Positions 7,891 through 36,086 of a stretch of 64,000 nucleotides of DNA are shown piece after piece; position 1 is the first letter of the stretch; each line of letters begins with the position of its first letter. A model generated the notes under the pieces. It worked only from the letters and a program-made list of their open reading frames with translations. It was not told where the DNA came from and ran no database searches. The stretch is from Limnobacter alexandrii (GTDB lineage: Bacteria; Pseudomonadota; Gammaproteobacteria; Burkholderiales; Burkholderiaceae_B), in NCBI RefSeq assembly GCF_005871185.1, contig NZ_SWKN01000011.1:62001-126000 (forward strand), in the 5' to 3' direction. A program made the translations under genes and the position numbers.

Positions 7891-8631
7891 ATGGCAAAGA
7901 AGCCTTTAGGCCGTGTAATTTCTGTGGTAGGCGTGAAGGGCGGAGTAGGGAAAACCTCGACCGCCGTCATTGTTTCTGCGCTGCTTGCGAGAGCAGGCTA
8001 CAAGGTTGCCGTGATTGATACTGATCCTCAAGGAACTGCATTCAAATGGGGCCAGGCCCGGAAAGAAAGCAAGATTTATGAACAGGTGTATATGTTTAGC
8101 CATGTACTAGATCATGGACTTTCTGAAGTTGTCAGGAACCTTGTCAATGACTACGACTTCATCATTATTGACACGCAAGGACAAAACAATACCGCCATCG
8201 GAAACTCGATCTACGCTTGTCACTACGCAATAACACCTTTGCCTCCTAGAGCATTTGATACATGGTCTATTTATCAAACAGCGAACATCATTGCGCAAGC
8301 TAACGAGACAAGAGTGAAGCTTGGTTTGCCAGTTGTAAGGCCATTGCTGTATATCAATATGGCAAAGCCAAGATCTCCCGAGCTCTCCGACATGCTTGAG
8401 TTTTTGGCTACAGATGACAAGTCAAAACAGATCTTTCGGTATGCCGAAACGATTATTTTCGACAGGGTTCAATACAGTCGTAAAGCGTCGGATGGTGGAG
8501 CTGTCACTGATTATGACGGTGCAGATGTGCAAGAGGAAAAGAACTGGTTTGTCAGCTTGGTGAACGAGTTGCTGGATGGGAAGTTCAAGGTTGTTTTGAA
8601 GTCAAAAAGTAAAGATAACGTAGGAGTGTAA
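7891..8631 (+). CDS. parA: ParA-type partition ATPase of replicon 1
   Basis: This 246-residue protein has the deviant Walker A KGGVGKT at residues 16-22, the switch I-like DTDPQG near residue 43 and an IIDTQGQ Walker B near residue 92. That is the pattern of ParA/MinD ATPases. It lacks an N-terminal DNA-binding extension, so it is a type Ib-like small ParA. Such ATPases bind the nucleoid and move plasmid copies apart through a centromere-binding partner. The next gene starts only 4 bp after its stop and is the likely partner, and the repeat-rich tract upstream is the likely centromere. The ribosome site AGGAG is 7 bp before ATG 7891. The family is certain and the partition role is well supported by context. 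Confidence 0.93.
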   Translation: MAKKPLGRVISVVGVKGGVGKTSTAVIVSALLARAGYKVAVIDTDPQGTAFKWGQARKESKIYEQVYMFSHVLDHGLSEVVRNLVNDYDFIIIDTQGQNNTAIGNSIYACHYAITPLPPRAFDTWSIYQTANIIAQANETRVKLGLPVVRPLLYINMAKPRSPELSDMLEFLATDDKSKQIFRYAETIIFDRVQYSRKASDGGAVTDYDGADVQEEKNWFVSLVNELLDGKFKVVLKSKSKDNVGV

Positions 8632-8635
8632 GAGC

Positions 8636-9202
8636 ATGAGTTCCAACAAAAGACGCAATTCATTACTGTCCGGGCTGACATCGCACAATCCGCCTGAAAC
8701 GGGTGACGCTACTGCAGTTGATCTTTCAAAAATAGACTTCTCATTGCTCAATGAGAAAAGAGAGGAGGGGGCTTCGTCGAATCCCGCCGTGGCAGATAGA
8801 ACCGGTGGGGGTGAAAAGGGCAAAGGTTTTGGCAGTGCAGCTTTGTCAGCTACATCGCCGTTGCAGAGCATGCAGACATTCGACGAGCAGGCGATTAGTG
8901 AGATGATTTCACTGGTTCATGTAGGGCCGTATGTTTCCATGGTTGATTCGTTAGTGGATTACCTGCAAAAGAAAGGGCTGAAAAAAGCAAACAGAAACAG
9001 CGTGATGAGGTCGTTGATGTACCGCAGTTTGCTGATTGATTTACAAGCTGTAGGTTTGCCGATCCCTGAAAAGGCTGCTGAACATATGGAGCTTATTAAC
9101 AGCTATGTTGCTGAGCCTAGTAGCTTTGTTTTCACCTCAAAGGATTCTGAACTTCTAAAGCCGCGCAAAATGGCAAGAAAAGGGCCAAAGAAGGTTAAAT
9201 GA
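8636..9202 (+). CDS. Likely centromere-binding partner of ParA (188 aa)
   Basis: This small protein follows parA by 4 bp, with ribosome site AGGAG overlapping the end of parA. The first 90 residues are hydrophilic and probably disordered, rich in S, G, N and E. The second half is helical (SMVDSLVDYLQKKG and RNSVMRSLMYRSLLIDL), followed by a very basic tail (KPRKMARKGPKKVK). No HTH or ribbon-helix-helix motif is certain, but the size, basic tail and position fit a ParB-like DNA-binding adaptor. It is not related in sequence to the large PRTRC ParB at 30.7 kb. Confidence 0.7.
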   Translation: MSSNKRRNSLLSGLTSHNPPETGDATAVDLSKIDFSLLNEKREEGASSNPAVADRTGGGEKGKGFGSAALSATSPLQSMQTFDEQAISEMISLVHVGPYVSMVDSLVDYLQKKGLKKANRNSVMRSLMYRSLLIDLQAVGLPIPEKAAEHMELINSYVAEPSSFVFTSKDSELLKPRKMARKGPKKVK

Positions 9203-9268: not shown

Positions 9269-10888
9269 TTACTCTGATTCAGGGGTTGACGAACTGTCTT
9301 TTGATAGCCTCAGCCAGTTTGTGAATTCTAGACGCAGTCCAGCGTCGGATTCTAGAAGCTTTTCCAGGTCTTCCATGGTCATAGGCTTGTGATTGATCTC
9401 AGTATTTATGCTTAAGTACTTTCGCAGTTCATTCACGATGATTTTGTAATTTACTGGTTCACTGAAGGTATGCTGTGCCAAAGTTTTAATACGCACCATT
9501 CCTAGGTCGTTAGGCGATGAATTCTTATTTGCGCGCTCTTGAATAAAATTTTGCTTTTCTTTGATTTCTTTTTCGTTGAATAGTCCAGGTTGGGTTTTCA
9601 TCAAGTGTTCTTCTTTTTGGTTTTTGAGAATTTTCTTGTATAGCGCAAAGTTACTTTTTACCGTGTCACCATTTTTCTCAAACCTGGCCTTGCTCGCTTC
9701 GAACATCTCAACGCACGCAGTCATTAGTTCAAGGTCGAATTCTCTAGATAGAGCGTCTACCTTCGCAGGGGCAATTCCTATTCGCTTTGCAATTGAGTCT
9801 TTCTCGATGGCCAGCCACTCTAAGTCTTTTTTGTATGGTTTGTAGCTGAAGATTACATAAACGCCGGTGACTTTTCGATGTTTCCTGGTTAACTTGAATT
9901 CTTCAATGAAAAGGTCAGTATTTTCATTGATGTCGTTTTGAGCTCTGCGAAGAACAGCTTTTAAGAAGACTCTCCAGCCACCATCTTTGATCTCAAGATT
10001 TTTCCAAGGGTCTTTGTCTTTGTCGAACTCTGGGTGGTACATCCAGTATGTTTTCTCGTCCTTTGCGTTAGAACAAACTAAGTTGTGAAACTCAATTGCA
10101 GTAAATTGACGTGTGAAAAGCCTTTGACCAGGTTCGATGGGCGCTAGTTGTTGACCTGTTCTTAGATAAAACTCCTGTTTCAAAATGCCATAAAGAGCTT
10201 GCCCGTATTTGGTTTTGATCTGAAGTCTTACGTTAAGATCCAAGACAGCATATAAGGACTTTGTAAAGGCGAAACAGGCCTTTACCGGGCTACCCCATTC
10301 AATCTGCAATATGTCTGAACGGGACCACTTTTGAAGGCTTCTTTGTTTATCGAGCACTTCAATGGTACCGTTTTGTGGGCGCAGCTCAAATTCGGATTCT
10401 TTGCTTTCTTCTCTTAGAAACCTTGTGTACCCATTTATCATTACACCCTTCATTCGTGCGGCATAAACTTTATTCTTTGGTTGGTTTATAACCTGGTCGT
10501 CAACTGGGAAGTGGTTGAAAAATTCTTTGATTCTGTCGCCCAGTACATCGAGTTGTACTGGTAATAGATTGATCGTATCGAGCAGTTTTTCCATGCGATC
10601 GATGTGCTGGATATTTAACATCGTCATGAGAGAACCTACTTCCACGGTGACGTAGTCACTTGGTTTATCAGTGCCACGTCGTTGTTGTAAATCTTTTGAA
10701 ATATATATGAGGGTTTCAATGAGCTGAGTAGCCTTTACTGATACGTCGGCCCAAGGCTTCGTGTCATCACCGTACCCGAGAAAAATAAGACCAGACTCTT
10801 TGGCGTATTGTGGGTTGTCCTGGAAGAACTTCGAATCGATCTCTTCAAAGACCAGCTCATTGGGATCGAGCTTTGTTGTTGAATTCAT
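9269..10888 (-). CDS. Plasmid replication initiator of replicon 1 (Rep_3-like)
   Basis: This 539-residue protein has the two-domain winged-helix layout of iteron-binding initiators. The stretch KTKYGQALYGILKQEF near residue 215 matches the helix-turn-helix entry typical of Rep_3/RepB proteins. The basic, coiled C-terminal 150 residues are extra. The start is ATG 10888, with GGAG upstream. Transcription runs away from an adjacent region holding three DnaA boxes and phased copies of GGAAAACTTTGTC (10997-11594), which are the expected binding sites. The protein would melt the origin with DnaA and set copy number. It is only distantly similar by eye to the second Rep protein at 25-26 kb. Confidence 0.82.
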   Translation of the reverse strand: MNSTTKLDPNELVFEEIDSKFFQDNPQYAKESGLIFLGYGDDTKPWADVSVKATQLIETLIYISKDLQQRRGTDKPSDYVTVEVGSLMTMLNIQHIDRMEKLLDTINLLPVQLDVLGDRIKEFFNHFPVDDQVINQPKNKVYAARMKGVMINGYTRFLREESKESEFELRPQNGTIEVLDKQRSLQKWSRSDILQIEWGSPVKACFAFTKSLYAVLDLNVRLQIKTKYGQALYGILKQEFYLRTGQQLAPIEPGQRLFTRQFTAIEFHNLVCSNAKDEKTYWMYHPEFDKDKDPWKNLEIKDGGWRVFLKAVLRRAQNDINENTDLFIEEFKLTRKHRKVTGVYVIFSYKPYKKDLEWLAIEKDSIAKRIGIAPAKVDALSREFDLELMTACVEMFEASKARFEKNGDTVKSNFALYKKILKNQKEEHLMKTQPGLFNEKEIKEKQNFIQERANKNSSPNDLGMVRIKTLAQHTFSEPVNYKIIVNELRKYLSINTEINHKPMTMEDLEKLLESDAGLRLEFTNWLRLSKDSSSTPESE

Positions 10889-10996
10889 CACAGCACTCCA
10901 TAGTCTATTTATAAGACATAAAACAAGACTTAAATAGGGTAGGGCGCTCGCTACCCGGAATCCGCAGTTTTCTTGATTTTTTACAAAGAGTTAGCC

Positions 10997-25056: not shown

Positions 25057-26373
25057 ATGTCGGACCAACAGCCAGGCCAAAACATCTCCAGACTAAGGAA
25101 GCCCAATGACTCGATCCACCTTCGTGTCAACCGTTCGCGCCTGACAGTCAATGGCATCCGTATTTTCAATGTGATTATCGCGCTGGTTCAGAACGAAACA
25201 ATGCGCGGCACTAGGTTGATTCCGTGCAAGGACAAGACCCTTGAGGGCCATTACTGGATGTCAATGCCTGATTTTCAGGCTGCATTGAACATGGACAGGC
25301 GTAACAAACCGTACCTGGTCAATTCTTTGAAGCAATTGCACAGCGTCGAGGTCAGCGGCTTAAGTGATGATCAATGGGTGTACTCGAACCTCTTGATCGG
25401 GCATTCGATCGTCGAGAGAAGTGCCGTGCATGACTGGGCCAAAGGCTCAAGCTGGGTGGGTTTTTTCTTGCACCCCAAAGTGATTGACCACATCAAAGAC
25501 CCCATGACTCGATACACGCCGATCGAGCTGATGTATCAGAACCGGCTGAGCACAGTCTCGGCAATTATCCTGTATGAACACTGCCTCTCCTTTCTCAAGC
25601 TTGGTAGAACGATGAATCATCAGGTCGATAACCTGATCATGTTTCTAAGGGCGCAGGAATCCAGTAAAGACCAACGGAAAATCAGCTACCGTGAGTTCAA
25701 AAACGATTATCTGAAGAAAGCAATCGCTGAGATCAACACGCAGACCAATGTGACGATCAAAGTGAAGGAAAAACGCAAAAGCAGGCGTATCGATGAGGTT
25801 TATTTTGAAGTCCTACCCAGGATCGACGAAGTCATTCAGGAGCCCGTGAGAAGCATCGACCAGGCGCTGGAAGCAAAGGAACTTCAGGCTCGATTGAACG
25901 AAATTGGTTTCTCAGCCAAGGAAAGCAATTTGATCCTGGCCGCGCACAGAACTGAGAGGGTTCGACTGGCCTTGGACGAATTTGGGATGATATTGAAAAA
26001 AGGCAAGAAGTTCACCACCAGCGCAAAGGCATACTTCCGCGCATTGATCAGCCGGTTTGATGAAGAACAGACCTTGGCCAAGAAAATGTCTGCTGGGCAA
26101 CTGGACTGGATCAGTGAAGACCGCATTTCAAGTTTTGAACGCGCTCAGTTCGAGAAAGAGCGCCAAGACGAGGATAGGCAGATTGCAGTGGCTGATTCAT
26201 GTTCGAACGAGGAGCTGGAGCTGTGCTGGCGCGAATTGCTTGAAACGATGGATGATCGCCAGCGTTTGATGTTTGCTGAGAAGCATCCAAAGGATTTTCC
26301 CAAATCAAGGGCGATGGTGGGTCGCTACATCATCAAAAAACGAGAAATTCAATCATTGTCAGACCAGTGCTAG
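25057..26373 (+). CDS. Plasmid replication initiator of replicon 2 (Rep_3-like)
   Basis: This 438-residue protein has the paired winged-helix plan of iteron-binding initiators. The segment LSTVSAIILYEHCLSFLK near residue 170 corresponds to the first winged-helix entry of Rep_3 proteins. The region after residue 280 is a long helical tail. ATG 25057 lacks a strong ribosome site, so initiation may be weak, as is common for rep genes. Upstream repeats AAAGTCGAAAAC are the likely binding sites. It differs from the Rep protein at 9.3-10.9 kb in sequence and in iterons, so the window holds two separate replicons. Confidence 0.82.
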   Translation: MSDQQPGQNISRLRKPNDSIHLRVNRSRLTVNGIRIFNVIIALVQNETMRGTRLIPCKDKTLEGHYWMSMPDFQAALNMDRRNKPYLVNSLKQLHSVEVSGLSDDQWVYSNLLIGHSIVERSAVHDWAKGSSWVGFFLHPKVIDHIKDPMTRYTPIELMYQNRLSTVSAIILYEHCLSFLKLGRTMNHQVDNLIMFLRAQESSKDQRKISYREFKNDYLKKAIAEINTQTNVTIKVKEKRKSRRIDEVYFEVLPRIDEVIQEPVRSIDQALEAKELQARLNEIGFSAKESNLILAAHRTERVRLALDEFGMILKKGKKFTTSAKAYFRALISRFDEEQTLAKKMSAGQLDWISEDRISSFERAQFEKERQDEDRQIAVADSCSNEELELCWRELLETMDDRQRLMFAEKHPKDFPKSRAMVGRYIIKKREIQSLSDQC

Positions 26374-26388: not shown

Positions 26389-27174
26389 TCAAGACGTTGC
26401 CTGTGGCTTGTAGCCCATTGATTTCCAGACTGTAGGGTTGATATTGATCGGGTTTGCACGACCTGATTTTAAATCCATGAACTGACCGTGAATGGAGATC
26501 TGACCGTGGAAAATCAAGTCCCACAAGCAAGCCAAGGCTTGAGAAGTCAGCGCCTTGTTGATAAAAAGCGACTGCTTTGAGAGCGATACAGCCATCGAGC
26601 AACTTGGTTCATCGGGAGCCTCTTTGGACGGGTCTGTCAGTTCTGGCAACAATTCATTGGGCATGGGCAACTCAGGCTTTCCTGATGTTGAACCAAGAAC
26701 CCATTGTCCGGTGTGCGAGGAGTTACCCAAATCAAGCCAGTAGTCGTAATCCTGTGCTTTGGTGGCGATGATTTGACGAGAGGCCACGCTGTCAACGCAA
26801 CTAATCAACACATCCATTGATGACCTGAAATGACGGGTTCTGATTGATCCGTCAAAGCGAACAGGCATTGATTGAAAGTCCAAGCCGTAGGCCATATTGA
26901 TTCGACTGATCAGGCAGTCTGTTTTGTGTCGGCCAATATCGGCTGGAAAGTATGGTTGTCGGCCTATGTTGTTGGCAGATACGGTGTCTGGGTCGTAGGC
27001 TGTTACGCGAAACCGCTTGTCCGTCATGGCATGAATTGCGTGAGCCATGCTTGCAAGGCCGGTGATGATTTGAGAACCCGTGCCCCCTGCCCCAACGACA
27101 ATGAAGTTCAGTTCTTTGCACTGCAATGCCTGTTGACTGATGTAGTGAGTTTGATTGGTTTCAGGGCTTGTCAT
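26389..27174 (-). CDS. PRTRC system ThiF-family (E1-like) protein
   Basis: This 261-residue protein has the E1-type nucleotide-binding glycine motif GAGGTGS near residue 28, the acidic strand YDPDTV and NNIGRQ near residue 70 and SCVDS near residue 125. These are hallmarks of ThiF/MoeB/E1 adenylating enzymes. The later PSCSMAVSLSKQSLFIN matches PRTRC ThiF proteins. In E1 chemistry the enzyme adenylates the C-terminal glycine of a ubiquitin-like partner; here the partner would be PRTRC protein C. It is the last gene of the PRTRC operon (9 bp after protein A). The family assignment is firm and the activity is inferred. Confidence 0.9.
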   Translation of the reverse strand: MTSPETNQTHYISQQALQCKELNFIVVGAGGTGSQIITGLASMAHAIHAMTDKRFRVTAYDPDTVSANNIGRQPYFPADIGRHKTDCLISRINMAYGLDFQSMPVRFDGSIRTRHFRSSMDVLISCVDSVASRQIIATKAQDYDYWLDLGNSSHTGQWVLGSTSGKPELPMPNELLPELTDPSKEAPDEPSCSMAVSLSKQSLFINKALTSQALACLWDLIFHGQISIHGQFMDLKSGRANPININPTVWKSMGYKPQATS

Positions 27175-27183
27175 GGCGCGTGT

Positions 27184-27861
27184 TCACTGGAAAGTAATGA
27201 GTTCACTTAGTATCTCGCAGACTTCGATTTGCGCAAGTTCTACGCCCCTGACCATGATCTTTGAAGCAATTGAGACTTCATCTTGGTTCAGGTTCCCAAT
27301 CACCATGCTTATCTTGGTTGATCCGTGGTCGTCGGTTTTGTCGGTAGGAGAAAAGAAAGCCTTGTGAACCCCATGGCTGTGGATGTCAATGACCAAGGAC
27401 TCGAATCGGTCAAGATCGGGGTAACGGTACGAGATGTGTGCGCCAGTGGCACGAATAACGTGTGGAAAGTGCAAAGAGTACTCTTTAGTCTGTTGATTAA
27501 ACGAGATCAGGCAAGCCGCTTCCAAAGGGCAGGCGCTGCGGAAATGGTCAAGCACAGCGCGGCATATTTCGCCGGGCACCTTTGGGAGATTGATTTTCAC
27601 GAATTCATGGGCCTTGCCGTATGGTGGGCTGAAATTCGCACAGAGTTGGGCAATCTTGAATTGTGTTGAGATCCAGGTATTTGAATGATTGAGAAACACC
27701 CCATTGCTGGCTACGACTATCTTATCTTCACCAGCCTGAACGGATGCAAAATCCGTGGAAATTGCTTGTCCTGAGTAGGACTGCGCATGCAGTGGAACTC
27801 GGTCAATTGCGATTGTGTCAAACGCTTTGATATTGGTGGGCGAGAGGTTTTGAAAATTCAT
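27184..27861 (-). CDS. PRTRC system protein A (JAB/Mov34 metallopeptidase-like)
   Basis: This 225-residue protein carries a JAMM-like pattern: a Glu in LEAACLI near residue 115, HSHG near residue 160 and a following FSPTDKTDD segment with Ser and Asp ligands. JAB/Mov34 enzymes cut ubiquitin-like tails, so in this cassette it would process or remove the Ub-like protein C. AAGGGA precedes ATG 27861. It lies 2 bp after protein B and 9 bp before ThiF, in one operon. Confidence 0.88.
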   Translation of the reverse strand: MNFQNLSPTNIKAFDTIAIDRVPLHAQSYSGQAISTDFASVQAGEDKIVVASNGVFLNHSNTWISTQFKIAQLCANFSPPYGKAHEFVKINLPKVPGEICRAVLDHFRSACPLEAACLISFNQQTKEYSLHFPHVIRATGAHISYRYPDLDRFESLVIDIHSHGVHKAFFSPTDKTDDHGSTKISMVIGNLNQDEVSIASKIMVRGVELAQIEVCEILSELITFQ

Positions 27862-27863
27862 GC

Positions 27864-28634
27864 TTATCCCTTCAATTTCTTGTTGATCAAATCGCCCAAG
27901 GTCATGGGTAGTGGGTTGCCATCATCTTTGACCATAATCTGGTTTAAAACGCGCGTAGGAAAGGTTTTTCGAGGCTTCTTACTCAGCCTTGCCCACAGGC
28001 CACCAATACCCCCTTTTGCGCTTGTGAAGCTTTGTGTACCGGCATTGGGGTGGGTGTATGTCGAGTCAAACAGCACGGTTTCCCAGCCCTTGATCGCTTG
28101 AGAAATGGAGTGGTGCTTTGGAACCGTGTTATTGCCCATGCAAAGGGAGTTGTTGGAAAAGATATTCATCAGTGGCGCGTGGCACAACACGGTTTCCGCG
28201 CTTGGGCGCTCTTTGGTGCAATCCTTGGTTTGAATGGCGTAGACGCTCAAATTGGACTTGTGCACACAAAAGATCAGGTCCGGGTAAGGCACTTCGAATA
28301 CGCCAGTCACAGACGGTGACTTGAAAAAGGTCTTGCGAACTTGGCCTTTGCATGACCAGATTAGCACTCCGTTGTCGTTAAAAAGCACATTGGCTGGGAG
28401 TACTTCTGCGCCTGAGTCCGCCTTGCGTGACTGGATCTTGCAAATACTGCGCATCGTTCTTTGGGTCAGTGGTTTTCCTGCGCCAATGATGGGGCGATTT
28501 TGTTCGTCCATTTGGACGTTGTGAACGGTTGCAAAGCTGGACTGTTCTTTGTTGTCTGAGTACAGCAAGATTGCTTTTCTGATTGAAAAGTAACTTTCGT
28601 TGGTATTCAGTGCATGGTTTGCCGAGATATTCAT
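27864..28634 (-). CDS. PRTRC system protein B (prokaryotic E2-like)
   Basis: This 256-residue protein starts at ATG 28634 with GGAA upstream; a GTG at 28658 is also in frame. The segment CHAPLMNIFSNNSLCMGN near residues 158-175 matches the PRTRC B / Prok-E2 family D pattern, whose Cys (in LCMGN) is the candidate thioester site. Downstream, THPNAG resembles the loop after the E2 active site. Together with ThiF, protein A and protein C it completes a set of E1-, E2-, protease- and Ub-like parts. The C-terminus is basic. Confidence 0.82.
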   Translation of the reverse strand: MNISANHALNTNESYFSIRKAILLYSDNKEQSSFATVHNVQMDEQNRPIIGAGKPLTQRTMRSICKIQSRKADSGAEVLPANVLFNDNGVLIWSCKGQVRKTFFKSPSVTGVFEVPYPDLIFCVHKSNLSVYAIQTKDCTKERPSAETVLCHAPLMNIFSNNSLCMGNNTVPKHHSISQAIKGWETVLFDSTYTHPNAGTQSFTSAKGGIGGLWARLSKKPRKTFPTRVLNQIMVKDDGNPLPMTLGDLINKKLKG

Positions 28635-28654
28635 GGTCGTATTCCGAAGTTGAG

Positions 28655-29725
28655 TCACTTGGTTAATTCAATCAGAGAATCGATTTTGCGCAAGGTTGTG
28701 GCAATGGCTTGAAGCAAGGCGAAGGCATCATTTAGTTCTGGTTTGGACTGGGCTACCAGATTGAGTTGGAAGTAAGACGCACAGTCGCCTTGCATGACTT
28801 GTTGGTGCAATTCGTCCATTGTTTGTTCAAACATGGCGTGGCCGTTCATGTCCAGAAACAGGGCTGGAAAAACATCGTGGCAGTCCTCGTCGGCAAGTTG
28901 GGAATAATTGGCATCTAGCAAAGACTGGCAACGTGATTCAATCGTTTTGGTGAGTTTTAATTTTCGAGCTTCATCGCTCCAGGCAATTAACTGTTCGTGT
29001 AGTGAACTGGTAGACGCATTGATCGCCTGTTTACGCGAGGACTTGGTAATACCAATGTAGCTTGAGAAATTCTCCTTCAAATGGCTTGGCAGCGAGGGGT
29101 TTGATTCAAGCCATTCCTGCATTTCATCTTCTCCCATGCCGTAGCAGCGTTCATCGATGTATTCAGCGTCATCTTCCATGCCAAAGAACAGGAATCCGTT
29201 GGCGTGATAAACCATTTCAGCAGGGGTGGTAACGAGGTGAGCGACAAAGGGCAACTTTCCCAAAGAATCGATGACATATTTGAGGATTGGCGCTGGCAGT
29301 GTTTCAGAGTTCAGTAGTGGCAACTCGTACAGAGTTGGGTCGAAGCAAAGGTTCAGCAAAAAGCTATTGCCAGTGGCCTGTACATCAAGGAAGGCTTGGA
29401 TGTGCTTGTATTGAGCAGATACTATCTCGGAAGGTATATTGGAGAGTAGTACGCCAGTTAGCGAAGATGATAGAGATTCCAGCGACTCATGCTTTTCAGC
29501 CAATATGCCGGGGTCAAGCCACTGGAAAACTTCGAAGTCCCTGTTGGTAAGGCCAGAGGGGAGGAACTGTAGCTGTGCCGGAACTTCGTGCGTCAGACTA
29601 GGAATCAACCCAAGCGGGTCGAATCCATGCTGGTTCAGAACAGCAGAATCGCCGCGCTTGGAGGCTCCAGAGGGCTTTGTTGGTGACCGGAGTTTTGGAT
29701 AGCCTGAGAAATGATCTGAGCGCAT
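28655..29725 (-). CDS. PRTRC system protein F
   Basis: This 356-residue, mostly helical protein occupies the usual place of PRTRC protein F, between C and B. There are no catalytic motifs. The start at 29725 has an excellent ribosome site (AAAGGAG), which means the gene begins inside a 67-residue frame that ends at 29635. Its family role is unknown. Confidence 0.8.
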   Translation of the reverse strand: MRSDHFSGYPKLRSPTKPSGASKRGDSAVLNQHGFDPLGLIPSLTHEVPAQLQFLPSGLTNRDFEVFQWLDPGILAEKHESLESLSSSLTGVLLSNIPSEIVSAQYKHIQAFLDVQATGNSFLLNLCFDPTLYELPLLNSETLPAPILKYVIDSLGKLPFVAHLVTTPAEMVYHANGFLFFGMEDDAEYIDERCYGMGEDEMQEWLESNPSLPSHLKENFSSYIGITKSSRKQAINASTSSLHEQLIAWSDEARKLKLTKTIESRCQSLLDANYSQLADEDCHDVFPALFLDMNGHAMFEQTMDELHQQVMQGDCASYFQLNLVAQSKPELNDAFALLQAIATTLRKIDSLIELTK

Positions 29726-29838
29726 TTGCTTGCTCCTTTAATCTGCTTTTTCGTCATGGTTGTCGTGGAACCGTGTTCCAAAATTTCCGACAAGGTGTAT
29801 TCCTTGACCGTGCCTTGGGGTTTCGAGTGTGCGCTCAT
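29635..29838 (-). CDS. 67-residue ORF overlapping PRTRC F
   Basis: It begins 5 bp after the stop of PRTRC C, with a weak purine-rich ribosome site (AAGGGTTAAGAG). Its last 30 codons overlap the start of PRTRC F in another frame. The non-overlapping part is basic and hydrophilic (KEYTLSEILEHG, TKKQIKGASK). It could be a real small component or only a coupling leader for F. Confidence 0.4.
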   Translation of the reverse strand: MSAHSKPQGTVKEYTLSEILEHGSTTTMTKKQIKGASKCAQIISQAIQNSGHQQSPLEPPSAAILLF

Positions 29839-29843
29839 TGCTC

Positions 29844-30050
29844 TTAACCCTTCGTACCAACACTTCGCTCAAACTTGTAGATAAGCTGGTCACCAACATG
29901 GTTGGCTGGCCCGATAGAGGCGTTGAGCAGATCAGGGTACATGGTCGAGTAAAAGTCTTTGACCATGCTCGGTGGCATGTCAGGGCTTGGGCTTGGCAAA
30001 AGTACTCCGTTGTAATCGTAGACAACGGTGAGTTCGGCGGTAACCATCAT
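29844..30050 (-). CDS. PRTRC system protein C (ubiquitin-like)
   Basis: This 68-residue protein matches PRTRC protein C: YDYNGVLLPSPSPDMPP early, MYPDLLNASIGPA in the middle and the end YKFERSVGTKG. The Prok_Ub group has a beta-grasp fold, and the chain ends in a glycine, as expected for an E1 substrate that needs no trimming. GGAG precedes ATG 30050. It lies between E and F in the operon. Confidence 0.88.
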   Translation of the reverse strand: MMVTAELTVVYDYNGVLLPSPSPDMPPSMVKDFYSTMYPDLLNASIGPANHVGDQLIYKFERSVGTKG

Positions 30051-30079
30051 GGTGTAGTGTCTCCGTTTGGGTGCGTTGT

Positions 30080-30535
30080 TTAGAACAAGCTCAGTGTGTG
30101 GGTATCAACAACTGGCGAGGTCGCTGAATCAGATTCATCGTCTAAATCCGCATCCTTTTCGATGGGCGACTGTTGGGTTTCGCTGGGAGCACTCACTGCC
30201 TGTTTTTGAGCTTTGGGTGGTGTTTCGGCCTTGGGTGCGGATGCTTTCACGGTGACCTTGGCGGCAGTGACCTTGGCCTGTTTAAGCTCCTCCTTTTGCT
30301 GGGCAATCAGGGTGGCGAGGTCTGCGTAGTCATTGGACATTTCGAACAATTGATCCAAGAGCTGCGCATCAAGTTCGGCGGCGGTGCCGGTGAATGTCAT
30401 GGCCTTGGTGAGCAATGAATCCGGTGTATTTGGCGTGGGAATCAACACAATGTTGATCTTCTCGTCTTTCATGGCGGTGATCATCAGGTTGAGTTTTGCG
30501 TGGGCAAGAATTGGGGTCAGTGCTTGAAAAAACAT
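30080..30535 (-). CDS. PRTRC system protein E
   Basis: This 151-residue protein begins MFFQALTPILAHAKLNLMI, the start typical of PRTRC E. The first 70 residues are compact; the rest is a long Ala/Lys/Pro/Glu-rich, probably disordered tail ending in THTLSLF. It is the first gene of the PRTRC operon after ParB and has its own TTGCCA-type promoter at 30574-30604. Confidence 0.82.
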   Translation of the reverse strand: MFFQALTPILAHAKLNLMITAMKDEKINIVLIPTPNTPDSLLTKAMTFTGTAAELDAQLLDQLFEMSNDYADLATLIAQQKEELKQAKVTAAKVTVKASAPKAETPPKAQKQAVSAPSETQQSPIEKDADLDDESDSATSPVVDTHTLSLF

Positions 30536-30573
30536 GATCGTTGTTCCTTGTTTGTTTGGTTAATCTTGAAATC

Positions 30574-30604
30574 ATTGTTTCACCGTTTTCGGTTTTGGCA
30601 AGTT
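30574..30604 (-). promoter_or_regulatory. TTGCCA-type promoter of the PRTRC E-to-ThiF operon
   Basis: On the minus strand AACTTGCCA (30604-30596) gives the -35, and AACAAT (30579-30574) follows after 16 bp. This matches the shared promoter pattern with one change in the core palindrome. Confidence 0.6.
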
Positions 30605-30636
30605 AGGCGCAAAAGGCCGAAAGCCCTGCCAATCCG

Positions 30637-30652
30637 GGGTGATGCGTCACCC
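30637..30652. promoter_or_regulatory. Inverted repeat GGGTGA-N4-TCACCC, possible ParB site or terminator
   Basis: A 6-bp inverted repeat with a 4-bp centre lies between the end of parB (30708) and the promoter of PRTRC E. Just beside it is CACAA-GTTG-TTGTG. No T run follows, so a protein-binding site such as parS is possible. Confidence 0.35.
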
Positions 30653-30707
30653 ACAAGTTGTTGTGAGTAACGCAACAGATCAGTACAACTTTGCTAATTA
30701 GACGAAG

Positions 30708-32513
30708 TCAACTTTCTTGTTTCTCGGCTGATTCAGTACAAGCTGGAACCGTTGTCGCATCTTGTTTTGGTAGCTTGCGCTGCTGCAACACAGAGGTGTG
30801 TGGCAGGGCAATTGCCGAGGGAACCACGGTGTCCCAATCGACAGTCAGCGAAAGAATCGAGTCGATGAATTCGGGCTTTTTTCCTGAAAGGGCTTTCTTG
30901 AATGCCGATTGCGACTCGAAGAAGGTGTCCAGTCCAGTCTCGTTGCACATGGATTCGAGTTCTGATTTGGTGAACAACTCCAGGTATTCTTTCGTTATTT
31001 TCCAATGTTTCATCAGGTCAAATTGATAAAACTGCGCGATCTCAAATACCTCTGAAATTGGGATGGTCAGCATCAGCGAGGCAATGGCAGCGTTCGTCCC
31101 GCTTTCGCGCTGCTCCTTGGGCAGTGTTGTGAAGTCAGACAGGGTGATGTCCTTAATTTCGTCATTGCCTCTGTCAAAACCAAAGAGCTTTGTGGACAGC
31201 TTTTTCACGTTGCTCGACTGGTAATGACGCATTGATCCCGTGTACATCAGCGAAAGCAATATGGTGGATGCCTTGTGCGTGTCAGCGAACAATTCATTGG
31301 CGACGACCTTGCGCCATGTTTTTTGTTTGAATTCATCGGCACGGACGTTGTTGGTCTTGCGAGCCGTGGTTTCGGTGACCTTGATCTTTTTTATCGCTGG
31401 CGAAGTTGGTTTTGCGCTGGCCGTGGTTTTGGCCTGTGACAGCGATTCAACTGAATTGCCTTCTGATTCAGACTCGGATTGGGTGTTGGCTTGTGCTTTT
31501 TTTGCAATTTCTAATGCGTGGTTCGTCACCATTTCCGAGTTGCATTGCGTATCAAAGCACTGGTTCTTGGATACAAGGCCAACGGAGTCGGCAAGCGTGG
31601 AAACCGTGGCACCATAGTTTGCACAGCCTTTACATGAATTGAACTGGTTTGAACCCACCGATTGTTCATTGACCAACACAACCTTGATGCTGTGCAAGTC
31701 ACGTACTATTTCAACCTTGGGCAATTCTTCTTGTAGCTCTGAGGCGATTTCTTGAATCTTCTGCTCTGTTTTCGCAGTGAAGCATTCGCGGTTTGTGCAA
31801 TAGCCCTCCCCTACACAGTTTTCCAGAAGGGTGGCCTGGACCTCTGAATTGCTCACGCAGTTTTGGCAATCTGACTTGTCAAAAATCGCGGTTTGTAGCT
31901 TTTGGCTCACGCGTGTAAGAAGCTCTTTGGTTTGTTGGACGGTGAGCTTGTTTTCTATGACATTTCGCAGTGCGATTTCTTGGTTTGTTCGTGCGATGAC
32001 AGCAATCAATTCGGCATGACCAAGCAAGATACGGCGCTCGTTTAATGCCACTTTGACTACAGGCTCCAGATGTTGAAGCGCCATTCGTGCATCGAACAGC
32101 GAAGGCTTCCAGCCAAGAAGGCGCATCGCCTCGGCCTTGTCGCCGTTGACATCGTTAAGAATCTTCAGGGCTGCATCGCTTTCCTCGGTGGGACTCATTT
32201 GTTCACGCTGAATGTTCTCGATCAGTGCGATTCTTCGAGATTCTTCTTCGTTCTCCTCCTCTTTGATCAACACAGGAATTGAGCCTGACTCCAGCCCGAA
32301 AGCCAAGATGCTTGCACGCCAGCGTCTTTCTCCGGCAATGATTTGGTATTGGGGATTGTCTACGCTGCCAATTGGTTTGACCAAGATGGGCTGGAAAACA
32401 CCATGCGCCTTGATGGTTGAACAAAGCTCCTCCAGCTTGGTTGGACAGAAAAATGTTCTAGGGTTTTGGCCTGAGACGATTTGCTTCAATGGCATGTTGG
32501 CGACGTATTTCAT
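30708..32513 (-). CDS. PRTRC system ParB-family protein with cysteine-rich middle
   Basis: This 601-residue protein starts with a ParB/Srx nuclease-like domain: NPRTFF near residue 17, then IIAGERRWRAS near residue 58 and ALIENIQREQMSP near residue 95. An HTH-like region follows. The middle holds two Cys groups, DCQNC through CTNREC (about residues 214-245) and CKGCANY through CFDTQC (about 290-325), which could bind metal. The C-terminal half is unlike chromosomal ParB. GGAG is 7 bp before ATG 32513. ParB proteins bind a centromere and use CTP; this one defines the PRTRC cassette. Confidence 0.9.
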   Translation of the reverse strand: MKYVANMPLKQIVSGQNPRTFFCPTKLEELCSTIKAHGVFQPILVKPIGSVDNPQYQIIAGERRWRASILAFGLESGSIPVLIKEEENEEESRRIALIENIQREQMSPTEESDAALKILNDVNGDKAEAMRLLGWKPSLFDARMALQHLEPVVKVALNERRILLGHAELIAVIARTNQEIALRNVIENKLTVQQTKELLTRVSQKLQTAIFDKSDCQNCVSNSEVQATLLENCVGEGYCTNRECFTAKTEQKIQEIASELQEELPKVEIVRDLHSIKVVLVNEQSVGSNQFNSCKGCANYGATVSTLADSVGLVSKNQCFDTQCNSEMVTNHALEIAKKAQANTQSESESEGNSVESLSQAKTTASAKPTSPAIKKIKVTETTARKTNNVRADEFKQKTWRKVVANELFADTHKASTILLSLMYTGSMRHYQSSNVKKLSTKLFGFDRGNDEIKDITLSDFTTLPKEQRESGTNAAIASLMLTIPISEVFEIAQFYQFDLMKHWKITKEYLELFTKSELESMCNETGLDTFFESQSAFKKALSGKKPEFIDSILSLTVDWDTVVPSAIALPHTSVLQQRKLPKQDATTVPACTESAEKQES

Positions 32514-32777: not shown

Positions 32778-34895
32778 ATGAACAACAATCAACTAGAGCA
32801 GAAAGTCTTTGATTCAATCAAAGGGATGATCAAGCAACTTGAAACAAGCTGGCCAGGTTACAAGGTCCGTTCTGGACAACAGGAAATGATGTTTTGCGTG
32901 GCCAAGGCAATGCTCGACCACTATTCGCCCGAGACGCGAGGTGCTGAACGGACAGGGAAAAATATCGCTGTAATTGATGCGCCCACCGGCGTAGGCAAAA
33001 CCTTGGGATACCTGATTCCCGGTATTGCGGTGTCCTCTGAGCTTGACAAGCCATTGGTGCTAAGTACCGGCACTGTTGCACTTCAGGAGCAGCTTGTGAA
33101 TCGTGACATTCCCATGCTTGAGAAGGCGCTTGGGTTGGATCTGGACTACGGACTGATTAAAGGGCGTGGCCGGTACATGTGTTTGGCCCGCGCCAAGCGT
33201 TTACTCGGTGATATTTCCCAGACCAGCTTTCTTGAAGACATGGACAACAATGCAGCGATTAAGACTGAGGAAATCGAATTGGTCCGTGATTCGCTCACGC
33301 TTTTCACCAAAGGCAAGTGGGCGGGCGATGAAGACAGCATGACCACCAAAATTTCACCCGTGGTTTGGAGGCGTATGAACGCGGATCGCAATATGTGCAC
33401 TGGACGCACATGTAAGGAATTTGGCAAGTGCGCGTTTTATACCGCCAGAGCAGAGGCCAAGAGCTGCAAGATCATCGTGTCGAATCACGATCTGATTTTG
33501 AGCACGTCAGAAAATGAGTCCAATGCCTTGCCCGACCTTGATAACTGCCTGGTGGTTTTTGATGAGGGGCATCACTTGCCCGATCGGGCTTTGAACCATG
33601 GTGTGAAAAAAAGCCATGTTGATGCGCTCAGAGCAGACGTTCCCAAATTGTTGGGCCCTTATACGAGCGCAATGAACCTGTTTGGTGTGATGAAAGAACT
33701 CAAGCAGCCCATTGACGGTTACACAAGCCAGTTGGGAGACGAGCTAAGAACAGTGTATTCAATACTGGCCAAGCAACGCGAACTCAATGAAAGTGAGCGC
33801 GGTTTGTGGCGTTTCCAGCATGGTGTGGTACCTGCTCCATTGCTTGATTGCATCAAAAAGGCAAAGGACATCACCAGCGATTTGTTAAAGGCGTTAAACA
33901 CAGCGATCGAGGGCTTTAATGAAGTCATGGAGTCTGTGACTGACCAGGAGCTTGCTCAGACAATTTTGATGGCTTTGGGTGGGCATGTAGACAGACTGGA
34001 ACAGTTTGAGCAATTGGCCTCAATTTGGACACATGAATCGCAGATTCCGAATGCAAAATGGGTGCTTAAGGTCACCACCAAGGGGCAGTCCGGCCATGTC
34101 GATTTTGTATTGCACGGCAGCCCAATGACAGCATCGTCAATTTTGAACAAATTGTTGTGGCGAAAAGTCGGTGCTGGCGTGGTTTGCTCAGCAACGATCA
34201 CCAGCTGCGGAAGCTTCGATTACTTTGCAAAACTAAGCGGTTTGATGCGCCTTCCCAATGTGAATTTCACAAGTGTACAAAGCCCATTTGATTACCCTTC
34301 ACAGGGCACATGCACTGTGCCATCCAAAGGGTTCAATCCCAAAGAGGTGTCTACGCACACCGCTGAAGTGATCGAGTTTTGTGGCAAGGCTATTGCGCAA
34401 AATCAACACGGGATGCTTGTGCTTTTTGCAAGCCGAAAACAAATGGAAGCGGTTTACGCCGGGTTACCGACAAAGTTTAGACATCAGGTGCTTGTGCAGG
34501 GCTGTATGCCCAGGCACAAGATTTTGGATGCCCATCGTGATTCGGTCAAACGTGGAAACGCAAGTACATTGTTTGGCCTGCAGGGTTTTGGGGAGGGGTT
34601 GGATTTGGCTGGCCAGGATTGTGAGCATGTGATTATTGCCAAAGTCCCTTTTGATCCACCAGACTCACCCATTGAAGAAGCGTTGAGTGAATGGCTTCAA
34701 ACCCAACAAAGAAACCCGTTCATGGAAATTACAGTACCCAAGGCGGGAATCAAGCTGAATCAGTATGCAGGTCGATTGATTCGAACAGAGTCGGATCAGG
34801 GTCAGATCAGTATTTTGGACAGTAGGCTTGTAAACTCAAAGTACGGTGCGGTTCTTCTGAATGGGCTACCCAATTTCACAAAAAATATTGCGTAG
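32778..34895 (+). CDS. DinG-family superfamily 2 DNA helicase with Fe-S cysteines
   Basis: This 705-residue protein has Walker A APTGVGKT near residue 69, VVFDEGHHL (DEGH box) near residue 261 and the C-terminal motifs LQGFGEGLDL and QYAGRLIR. Four cysteines at about residues 206-230 (MCTGRTC, GKCAF and SCKII) fit the iron-sulphur domain of DinG/XPD helicases, which unwind 5' to 3' and act on R-loops and forked DNA. A TTGCGC-type promoter lies upstream. A second, Cys-poor DinG relative (CasDinG) sits at 59.5 kb. Confidence 0.92.
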   Translation: MNNNQLEQKVFDSIKGMIKQLETSWPGYKVRSGQQEMMFCVAKAMLDHYSPETRGAERTGKNIAVIDAPTGVGKTLGYLIPGIAVSSELDKPLVLSTGTVALQEQLVNRDIPMLEKALGLDLDYGLIKGRGRYMCLARAKRLLGDISQTSFLEDMDNNAAIKTEEIELVRDSLTLFTKGKWAGDEDSMTTKISPVVWRRMNADRNMCTGRTCKEFGKCAFYTARAEAKSCKIIVSNHDLILSTSENESNALPDLDNCLVVFDEGHHLPDRALNHGVKKSHVDALRADVPKLLGPYTSAMNLFGVMKELKQPIDGYTSQLGDELRTVYSILAKQRELNESERGLWRFQHGVVPAPLLDCIKKAKDITSDLLKALNTAIEGFNEVMESVTDQELAQTILMALGGHVDRLEQFEQLASIWTHESQIPNAKWVLKVTTKGQSGHVDFVLHGSPMTASSILNKLLWRKVGAGVVCSATITSCGSFDYFAKLSGLMRLPNVNFTSVQSPFDYPSQGTCTVPSKGFNPKEVSTHTAEVIEFCGKAIAQNQHGMLVLFASRKQMEAVYAGLPTKFRHQVLVQGCMPRHKILDAHRDSVKRGNASTLFGLQGFGEGLDLAGQDCEHVIIAKVPFDPPDSPIEEALSEWLQTQQRNPFMEITVPKAGIKLNQYAGRLIRTESDQGQISILDSRLVNSKYGAVLLNGLPNFTKNIA

Positions 34896-34929
34896 CTGCC
34901 CCTTTGTCGCCTGAATGTGGAGATCTCGA

Positions 34930-35487
34930 TTGAAATACGTTTTCATTCTATGTGGATTGATAAGCCTTGCAGGGATCGGTCACAGTGTCTGGGTCAATCG
35001 GGCTGAGACGAACGCAGCGTTTGCTCCAGTGGTGAGTCGAATCGTCGATACTTCGCAGCAAATTGTCACCGAGGCGAAAACCATCTACGAGAGCAAGAAA
35101 AGTGAAATGAAGACACCTTCTGAATCAGCCAGGCCGACCGCAGATGTAAATCCGGGAGTACCTAATACCCCTGTTGTTTCTGAGATCGACTGGCGGGCGC
35201 TTTTGACTATGGAACAAGGGTTGGATCAGGGAGGCTTTGCTCCGTATGTGTTGGATCGCTACGTTGTAAACGAACAGACAGGGGGTAGAAGTATTTTTGT
35301 GGTGTTGAAACAGCCCTTGCCGGGGACACAGATGGAGCCCGCGCAAAAAGTTGCGCAAAAATGGTTTTGTGAGAGGATGAATTCATTGGGTATCGCGCCA
35401 CAAGACAGGCCAGTAGTGGTTCTGGAGCTTCAATCGAATTTTGGTGAGGTTCTGGATTCAGCGCAGTTTTCTGTCATGAATTGTTAG
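34930..35487 (+). CDS. Membrane-anchored protein of unknown function (185 aa)
   Basis: An N-terminal hydrophobic segment (about residues 3-20) is followed by a periplasmic-looking chain with a coiled stretch and a Pro/Ser linker near residues 55-75. TTG 34930 has GGAG 7 bp upstream, so I prefer it to ATG 34915. It sits between dinG and ssb, probably in one transcript. No family is recognised. Confidence 0.6.
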   Translation: MKYVFILCGLISLAGIGHSVWVNRAETNAAFAPVVSRIVDTSQQIVTEAKTIYESKKSEMKTPSESARPTADVNPGVPNTPVVSEIDWRALLTMEQGLDQGGFAPYVLDRYVVNEQTGGRSIFVVLKQPLPGTQMEPAQKVAQKWFCERMNSLGIAPQDRPVVVLELQSNFGEVLDSAQFSVMNC

Positions 35488-35528
35488 GTGACGCGGTCTT
35501 TTTTAACCTCCAATGAATGGGGTAAATC

Positions 35529-36086
35529 ATGAGTTCAGTCAACAAGGTAATTTTGGTAGGTTCGGTTGGGAAAGACCCAGAGGTTCGATACATGCCCGAC
35601 GGCGGCTGTGTAGCAAACATCAGCCTTGCAACCAATTCGTCGTGGAAGGATAAAAACACAGGTGAGCGTCGTGAGGACACGGAATGGCACCGTGTTGTGG
35701 TCTATGGGAAATTGGCCGAGATTGCCGGTGAATACGTCAAAAAAAGCCGATTGGTTTACGTCGAAGGTCGCTTGAAAACACGCAAGTGGCAGGATCAATC
35801 CGGTGCAGACCGATACACGACCGAAATCATCGCCGATTCACTGCAATTGCTGGGCTCCAACGGCGGCAGGTCGGCAGACCAAGCCTCAGACGATGGCAAT
35901 GAGGGTCAGTCAAGCAGTGGCGGCGGCCAAGCGGCGTCTGGTCGTCAAGCCCCGGCAAGTAGCGCACAGGCCCCTGCCCCACGGGCACAAAACAAGCCAA
36001 ACCAGCAACGCCAACCCGCCATGGCAGGCGGCGGACTCATGGATGATGACATTCCATTCGCCGCAGTCAAACACTGGGAAGTTTAA
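35529..36086 (+). CDS. ssb: Single-stranded DNA-binding protein
   Basis: This 185-residue protein has the SSB OB-fold signature from its start ([19 protein letters not shown], then [13 protein letters not shown] and [12 protein letters not shown]). A low-complexity linker rich in Q, S, G, A and P follows, then the acidic tip MDDDIPF, which recruits repair and replication proteins. The residues KHWEV after the tip are unusual, because SSB normally ends at or near the DDDIPF motif. Plasmid SSBs coat DNA during transfer and replication. A terminator follows inside the convergent gene. Confidence 0.95.

Follow-up and report, generated by a model that had tools for sequence, protein, structure and literature searches.

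The PRTRC cassettes of plasmids and phages as a probable ubiquitin-like conjugation pathway

The PRTRC gene families are long-standing annotations with no tested function, and comparison of one such cassette with its plasmid, phage, and other bacterial relatives suggests, at the level of sequence, that the gene set really works as a ubiquitin-like (Ubl) conjugation pathway. The best explanation overall, to which we assign a probability of roughly three in four, is a self-contained Ubl-conjugation pathway of plasmids and phages that probably serves the element itself. A full ubiquitin-like pathway would then be carried by mobile elements, and its role becomes directly testable. The reading of the parts as Ubl, E1, E2, and JAB is not new, since Iyer, Burroughs and Aravind described a matching operon type, 6d, and predicted conjugation and JAB processing for it (Iyer et al., 2006; PMC1779556); the new evidence here is comparative. 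A literature search found no experiment on a PRTRC conjugation cassette, in agreement with the sequence-only reading that no PRTRC function had been established, the conjugation idea itself dating from the 2006 paper.

The cassette lies on the minus strand at 26389-32513 of the window (the whole stretch of 64,000 nucleotides analysed), and its replicon is an apparently circular plasmid of ~135.6 kb. These 6.1 kb hold all the ubiquitin-like parts said to stand beside a ParB, arranged in one direction as ParB, E, C (Ubl), X, F, B (E2-like), A (JAB), and ThiF (E1-like), thus seven PRTRC genes and an extra gene, X, which the sequence-only reading had omitted. Six of the PRTRC families (ParB, ThiF, A, B, C, and E) score above their curated NCBIfam cut-offs and are clustered on the one strand. 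Gaps of 172 nt (ParB-E), 29 nt (E-C), 5 nt (C-X), 2 nt (B-A), and 9 nt (A-ThiF) separate the genes, and overlaps of 91 nt (X/F) and 4 nt (F/B) join others. Joint transcription, also asserted earlier, is suggested by this spacing; a promoter scan gave no excess of sites (6, against 5.6 in shuffled sequences).

The Ubl, protein C (29844..30050, 68 aa), matches TIGR03738 (71.4 bits; cut-off 45.95) and Pfam Prok_Ub (65.2; cut-off 25) and ends in ...SVGTKG, the free terminal Gly claimed for it (VGTKG) being its final residue, Gly68 (codon 29847-29849). Comparison of C-termini places Gly at the canonical Ubl end in 159/160 cassettes, the exception (L144) having Ala. ThiF (26389..27174, 261 aa) was assigned from TIGR03736 (243.7 bits; cut-off 144.75), alignment, residue counts, and a profile search of the PDB, in which eukaryotic E1s matched best (1.2e-9), followed by E. 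coli ThiF (1.1e-7) and MoeB (2.9e-5). It has a Gly-rich loop, N69, R72, and D128 as well as a candidate catalytic Cys192 (PSCS, codon 26599-26601); N69/R72 are found in 160/160 cassettes and the Cys in 159/160.

Protein B (27864..28658, 264 aa, GTG start) matches TIGR03737 (173.7 bits; cut-off 131.45) and Pfam Prok-E2_D (120; cut-off 25), and alignments reveal the motif AP-x2-N-x7-C-x-G (P162, N165, C173, and G175). The cysteine in SLCMGN that had been singled out as a candidate, Cys173 (codon 28140-28142), is a conserved E2-type Cys kept in 159/160 cassettes, with Ala in L159. A His downstream of it (THPN in the window) occupies the same place in 9 of 11 aligned B proteins and is thus not absolute in the family. 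The predicted fold of B appears E2-like: in a model with pLDDT 89.6, E2 enzymes account for 47 of the 50 PDB matches listed, all of them weak (best Z 4.8); Foldseek returned no match at E<=0.001. Protein A (27184..27861) matches TIGR03735 (143.6 bits; cut-off 101.8) and Pfam Prok-JAB (47.6; cut-off 25), the latter preceded by a DUF2016 domain (27.2 bits, residues 15-88). Its JAB motif H-S-H-x7-S-x2-D (H161, H163, S171, and D174) is intact, as expected of the JAB peptidase it was taken for, and alignment finds H/H/D in 91/91 and S in 90/91 of the cassettes that have a JAB gene. Judged from homology, conservation, and predicted fold, ThiF would adenylate the terminal Gly of C and then hold C as a thioester on Cys192, and B would receive C on Cys173 and hand it to target proteins.

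The homology of ThiF could also point to sulfur chemistry, with ThiF and C acting like ThiF/ThiS or MoeB/MoaD to provide a thiocarboxylate for sulfur transfer and the JAB protein taking part as in sulfur-assimilation operons; a PAPS-reductase-like gene is present in the window (50321-52054), and such genes are nearby in three plasmids too. Sulfur-carrier systems, however, need no E2-like protein, and here one is present with its Cys conserved. The ThiF profile is closer to conjugating E1s, and PAPS-reductase-like genes occur in only 8/160 loci, 4 of these 8 being seeds of that search, so that this role is weak and we consider it very unlikely.

The main comparison comprised 160 cassettes, 91 with a JAB gene (JAB-plus) and 69 without (JAB-minus). 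They derive from 98 first loci (the window and L001-L097), 86 of which were used after removal of those without C, B, or ThiF and of a copy of the window (L006), and from 80 viral loci, 74 of which were used after 6 without C were dropped. Near-identical loci were retained in the counts, JAB absence was judged inside the fetched loci, and an E2-like protein is present in every cassette of the set by construction. Among the cassettes compared, a Ubl tail and a JAB gene appear to go together almost without exception: the Ubl stops at its canonical last residue in 69/69 JAB-minus cassettes (68 Gly, 1 Ala) and extends beyond it in 79/91 JAB-plus cassettes (Fisher 3.5e-33 over 160 cassettes, kinship ignored). 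The C of pMOL28 is one that runs on past this point (...AGAKG|AYAQI), and the extensions of L020 and L033 themselves end, by chance, in NG/KG. JAB is alone in showing this exclusive pattern, for among the 79 cassettes with an extended Ubl none lacks JAB, while 25 lack ParB, 14 lack F, and 14 lack E. Predictions had been set beforehand for 40 held-out cassettes (217 further loci less 165 on seen or duplicate contigs, 7 without a C call, and 5 without B), and in these the Ubl is extended in 29/33 JAB-plus and 0/7 JAB-minus cassettes, six of the seven called by script and the other (L211, a mis-registered call) after inspection. One locus, L092, carries a 9-residue Ubl extension although its JAB gene is split into two parts separated by 1.4 kb, and would be an exception to the rule if the split JAB is dead. 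Indirectly, the rule points to a Ubl that undergoes processing and acts through its terminal Gly.

Shared ancestry of two lineages might in principle produce such an association by itself. Independent changes are few (on the tree, the larger version of which omits L010, a minimum of 7 for JAB and 11 for the Ubl tail), and when independent pairs are compared by a conservative sign test, significance is not reached (p 0.125). The same sign test contains zero contrary pairs, however, and held-out loci of divergent clades agree with the rule. Models of correlated evolution in which the root could take only observed states likewise speak against shared ancestry alone (LR 24-39, p 8e-5 to 7e-8), although the fit with an A0E0 root lacks the simple rate pattern; nor do the other cassette genes show the exclusive pattern, and we regard mere kinship as a most improbable explanation. 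There is strong comparative support for A as a putative maturase, which would free the terminal Gly of precursor C, natural Ubl-X fusions included. Since C in the window is already mature and the motif of A is intact, the A encoded there would most likely strip C from conjugates.

Gene X (29635..29838, 67 aa, ending ...LEPPSAAILLF), recognized from its position, its tail, and codon-position tests over relatives, begins 5 nt past the C stop and overlaps the start of F in a different frame. It has no Pfam or NCBIfam match and represents a component missing from the family libraries. In 15 phage cassettes, all JAB-plus, X is fused behind the Ubl, L196 and L175 being examples of such Ubl-X fusions: an X model searched against 71 Ubl extensions produced 15 matches at E <1e-3 (best 1.5e-16), making X homologous to phage Ubl extensions in a test that used phage X proteins rather than that of the window. 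The prediction that X follows C unless the C tail is fused held only partly in the held-out cassettes, where X follows in only 10/27 without a fused tail and in 0/13 with one. Together with an isolated phage, the Ubl-X fusions offer simple test material.

The pathway's targets are a separate matter, for which the sequence-only reading had named partition. ParB (30708..32513, 601 aa) contains ParB_N and HTH domains by alignment and TIGR03734 (495.9 bits; cut-off 278.6), a Cys-rich stretch behind the HTH, and the GERR and ENIQRE boxes. If C were conjugated to this ParB, or via E to ParB complexes, the cassette could control plasmid segregation, and a ParB does lie within 2 kb in 64/91 JAB-plus cassettes. 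One locus (L150) encodes a ParB-E fusion, a 538-aa ParB ORF whose residues 463-534 match the E domain (7.7e-13), and PRTRC protein D, absent from the sequence-only list, is ParM/StbA-like (TIGR03739, 241.7 bits; C11:8081-9058 on the same contig, ~49 kb from the cassette round the circle and 79 kb by the other way). ParB is nevertheless within 2 kb of just 5/69 JAB-minus cassettes (absence being a lower-quality call, with some loci cut short), which argues against partition as the general role of the cassette, and cassettes occur on phages too. No ParA lies within the cassette, unlike in a ParABS system, where ParA stands beside ParB; a ParA gene with one gene behind it is found elsewhere on the plasmid, at 7891-9202 of the window (ParA-like gene 7891-8631). 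Partition is accordingly an unlikely role, and ParB as target loses ground, although the single L150 fusion keeps open a possible functional link between E and ParB. The broader proposal of a conjugation system has good support in the kept catalytic residues, the predicted E2-like fold of B, and the tail/JAB association, whereas its partition and ParB-target part is weak. In the conjugation pathway favored here, E, X, and F would be accessory proteins or candidate targets of the core, and ParB a frequent yet optional partner.

Protein E (30080..30535, 151 aa) consists of an N-terminal domain (TIGR03741, 47.2 bits; cut-off 37.95) and an acidic-rich tail ending ...HTLSLF, for which the tails of relatives were compared; a PDB sequence search with E gave no match. 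A terminal [LIMV][FWY] occurs in 32/93 dissimilar E tails against 1.4 in shuffles, and Q-x-x-[LIM]-F in 6/93 against 0.23, and because these patterns were chosen after the tails had been seen, a sliding-clamp motif in E is a lead only. A more speculative and distinctly doubtful proposal is that the pathway acts on the element's own replication or segregation complexes, E bringing the E2 to DNA and some clades delivering the Ubl fused to X. It builds on the hydrophobic tip that E bears on its acidic tail, clamp-binding-motif-like in some lineages, and on the one fusion of E to ParB, and would, if true, describe a bacterial counterpart to ubiquitin/SUMO signalling at PCNA. Protein F (28655..29725, 356 aa) is divergent, scoring 20.4 bits with TIGR03742 (under the cut-off of 58.4), and was provisionally assigned from its slot in the operon, which is that expected for F, and from a score of 162 bits to a model built from relatives with the window F itself among the seeds. 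A misplaced start was suspected from the overlap with X; AAAGGAG precedes the F ATG, which argues against it. The predicted model of a relative's F (L025; pLDDT 78.6, first ~70 residues <50) had no counterpart in the PDB at E<=0.001 (best Z 3.7).

Defence of the cell or element against phages, in the manner of Bil or CBASS Cap2/Cap3, would employ the same classes of parts, and Bil and type II CBASS are reported to act in this way (PMC10097602, PMC11153139). A PADLOC scan matched ThiF to E1-E2 models weakly (best 8.5e-6) and none of the six proteins ParB, E, C, F, B, and A at E<=0.01, and so gave nothing beyond these weak matches to indicate a known defence system. Cassettes are also found on phages themselves, such as BgVeeders33, an isolated Burkholderia phage. 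This location is equally compatible with counter-defence or with upkeep of the element, and a defensive role appears improbable.

Among known systems, the cassette resembles operon type 6d in its stand-alone Ubl with a C-terminal Gly, its E1-like protein, a helical fifth protein, an E2-like protein with the Cys but a downstream His in place of the HPN His, and a JAB protein with an extra N-terminal domain, DUF2016 in the window (Iyer et al., 2006; PMC1779556). ParB goes unmentioned in that paper, as do, in its available portion, gene X, the fusion of the Ubl to X, and the link between JAB and the Ubl tail. The window encodes the same families as the NCBIfam PRTRC system (TIGR03734-TIGR03742), all but F above cut-off, and shares the order ParB-E-C-F-B-A-ThiF with pMOL28 of C. 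metallidurans; it differs in its sub-cut-off F, in the presence of X, which lacks a model, between C and F, and in the location of D far off on the plasmid. Type II CBASS Cap2/Cap3, Bil, and Bub likewise bring bacterial E1, E2, and JAB-type parts to bear on a Ubl or Ubl-like tail, although E1 and E2 are sometimes one protein there (NCBIfam/PADLOC models), whereas in PRTRC they are separate proteins of other subfamilies (Prok-E2_D). In eukaryotic ubiquitin-ribosomal protein fusions, a Ubl is fused to a second small protein and cut after the Gly of the Ubl. The PRTRC Ubl-X fusions would follow the same plan, with X as the second protein and a presumed cut after the Ubl.

The contig that holds the window (its positions 62001-126000) is 135,698 bases long and its two ends share a 127-base repeat, which suggests a circular plasmid of ~135.6 kb, with a Rep_3-type initiator at 25057-26373 of the window and a second, weak one at 9269-10891. 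The PRTRC gene set described in the sequence-only reading is confirmed: ParB, E, C, X, F, B, A, and ThiF lie in that order from 32513 down to 26389 on the minus strand, and all PRTRC families of the window except F pass their curated cut-offs. X and a distant D gene are additions to that list. Divergent from ParB, 32778-36086 holds the gene of a DinG-type helicase, an ORF of 190 aa, and another ORF whose product, judged by eye only, resembles single-strand binding protein and has DDDIPF close to the end. A likely separate partition locus at 7891-9202 consists of a ParA-like gene and, after it, an ORF of 188 aa with no match in Pfam. A PAPS-reductase-like protein (Pfam PF01507) is encoded at 50321-52054; such genes lie near three gammaproteobacterial cassettes, and at 8 of 160 loci overall.

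Related loci were drawn from named plasmids, genomes, the 80 best genome contigs among 405 relatives, and the 80 best IMG/VR contigs among 153, the latter being predicted viral contigs that may include other elements. Relatives of B, the E2-like protein, occur in 323 of 72,556 PLSDB plasmid records, and of 398 genomes sampled from the window's phylum, 5 encode PRTRC B. In the isolated Burkholderia phage BgVeeders33, the genes for E, C, X, F, B, A, and ThiF are consecutive. Six of these seven proteins match their models at 1.2e-35 to 1e-108, and X is assigned by place and tail; the phage C, the ubiquitin-like protein (Ubl), reads VGTKG followed by 62 further residues. Among the Bacteroidota, some copies are on 0.8- to 5.8-Mb contigs, presumably chromosomes, and downstream of a Bacteroides cassette (L084:19264-20793) an ORF resembles, by eye, a contractile tail sheath protein.

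The C-terminus of C is closely tied to the presence of A, the JAB metallopeptidase. Among 160 cassettes that encode C, B, and ThiF, none of the 69 JAB-minus members has a C extended past its canonical end (terminal residue Gly in 68, Ala in one, the odd Ubl ending TKA at L144:7921-8136), and 79 of 91 JAB-plus members carry 2 to 100 further residues, the 12 without including the window (Fisher 3.5e-33, kinship ignored). No JAB-like ORF was found in the 69 JAB-minus loci even with the threshold relaxed to E 10. The 79 extended cassettes include 25 without ParB, 14 without F, and 14 without E, and none without JAB. A quick tree of 159 rows built from ThiF and B requires at least 7 JAB changes and at least 11 tail changes; independent pairs are never contrary, yet there are not enough of them (sign test p 0.125). 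Evolutionary fits favour dependence between the two whether the root is held to each of the observed states in turn or to all three together (LR 24.1-38.9, p 7.6e-5 to 7.2e-8). In three of the four fits, gain of an extension requires JAB and loss of JAB requires the absence of an extension; the fourth, with an A0E0 root, gives rates that look different.

Predictions were recorded before IMG/VR was scanned with ThiF of divergent clades, which yielded 217 loci. Of these, 52 were on contigs neither seen before nor duplicated, and 40 of the 52 encoded C, B, and ThiF. These were called by script as JAB-plus and extended (29), JAB-plus and free (4), JAB-minus and free (6), or JAB-minus and extended (1, L211). 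Inspection of L211 revealed a 68-aa C ending in AMPKG, with the model five residues out of register. With L211 reread, all 200 cassettes comprise 76 JAB-minus members, none extended (75 Gly, 1 Ala), and 124 JAB-plus members, 108 extended. JAB is in two pieces in 2 of the 124, in overlapping frames beside a C with free Gly at L040:9352-9995, and 1.4 kb apart beside a C extended by 9 residues at L092:7879-9908. The former conforms to the rule if its JAB is dead; the latter, with its extended C, would be the sole exception among the 200 if its JAB is dead too. The prediction that X follows C unless C has a fused tail failed in part.

The predicted catalytic residues are almost invariant. Cys173 of B is kept in 159 of 160 cassettes, the odd member having Ala (L159:9369-9971), and so is Cys192 of the E1-like ThiF, missing only from a ThiF cut short and adjoining a transposon (L010); ThiF N69 and R72 are kept in all 160. 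JAB H161, H163, and D174 are kept in 91/91 and S171 in 90/91, and H-x-H-x7-S-x2-D occurs in 33/33 held-out JABs. Among solved structures, eukaryotic E1s are the best matches to the ThiF profile (1.2e-9), followed by E. coli ThiF (1.1e-7). An AlphaFold model of B (mean pLDDT 89.6) gave no Foldseek match at E<=0.001. In a second structural alignment, E2 enzymes fill 47 of the 50 listed rows, the leading ones spanning 109-121 residues over model residues ~76-238, with a best Z of 4.8, a size that by the tool's own note may reflect mere common arrangement. The uniform E2 list, the Cys, and the preceding AP-x2-N all agree with B as an E2.

An ORF of 45-100 aa, termed X, starts -14 to +20 nt from the C stop in 126/160 cassettes; the same test gives 17/160 after B, 4/91 after A, 30/152 after ThiF, and 88/137 after E, which C itself follows. 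Four hydrophobic residues end 79% of 137 such ORFs vs 7.9% of 18,422 control ORFs (40-110 aa, same loci); the 67-aa X of the window ends LEPPSAAILLF. Differences at codon positions 1, 2, and 3 in 19 related pairs (87, 71, and 157; p 2e-9) fit the pattern of a translated frame. For nine X proteins, neither Pfam nor NCBIfam gives a match at curated cut-off. X was traced by sequence model in 56 loci and is putatively assigned elsewhere by place and tail. Of the 71 Ubl extensions of >=20 residues, 15 match at E<1e-3 (best 1.5e-16) a model built from eight X proteins that are encoded separately in one phage clade, and all 15 are in JAB-plus cassettes. With a general X model only L085 and L036 of the 71 reach 0.01, so fusions in L018, L027, L035, L036, L039, L085, and L098 are assigned from their tails and the absence of a separate X. 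Some extensions are not X: L019, L020, and phages L099-L120 have an extension plus, in nearly all, a separate X.

Residues, tail rule, and fusions together lend good support to a Ubl-conjugation pathway, as the sequence-only reading had proposed. C would be activated by ThiF, handed to B, and passed from B onto a target, and A would mature C where C is extended; since the window C needs no trimming yet the A motif is intact, deconjugation is the likely task of A there. E, X, and F accompany this core, ParB often but not always. The partition role also envisaged is unsupported as a general one. A natural ParB-E fusion occurs at L150:6234-7850, where a 538-aa ParB ORF ends in an E-type domain (7.7e-13), and Aeromonas caviae plasmid pK524-KPC has, between ParB and E, a gene whose annotation is DNA polymerase III subunit beta (DnaN-like; L016:5147-6301); the two may point to DNA-bound complexes as target. 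A post hoc lead in the same direction may come from E tails (window E, 30080-30535), of which 32 of 93 dissimilar ones end in [LIMV][FWY] past an acidic stretch vs 1.4 in shuffles, a pattern chosen post hoc; we take these ends, among them QASIF, QSSLF, and QTSLF in relatives, to resemble clamp-binding motifs.

In the open-licence text searched, no experiment on PRTRC was seen, some matches being the plasmid name pRtrCIAT899, and one published paper, in the part available, gives PRTRC as a putative, untested partition locus. The accessible text of Iyer et al. (2006, PMC1779556) describes an operon type 6d comprising a Ubl, a JAB with an extra N-terminal domain, E1-like and E2-like proteins, and a helical protein, lists Cupriavidus-type hosts, and predicts protein conjugation in which JAB would act in processing and removal (Iyer et al., 2006); ParB has no match in that text. 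From these shared features we infer that type 6d is PRTRC. The cassette is a known kind of operon, to which the JAB/tail rule, gene X, the Ubl-X fusions, and the occurrence in phages are, within the literature searched and to our knowledge, new additions.
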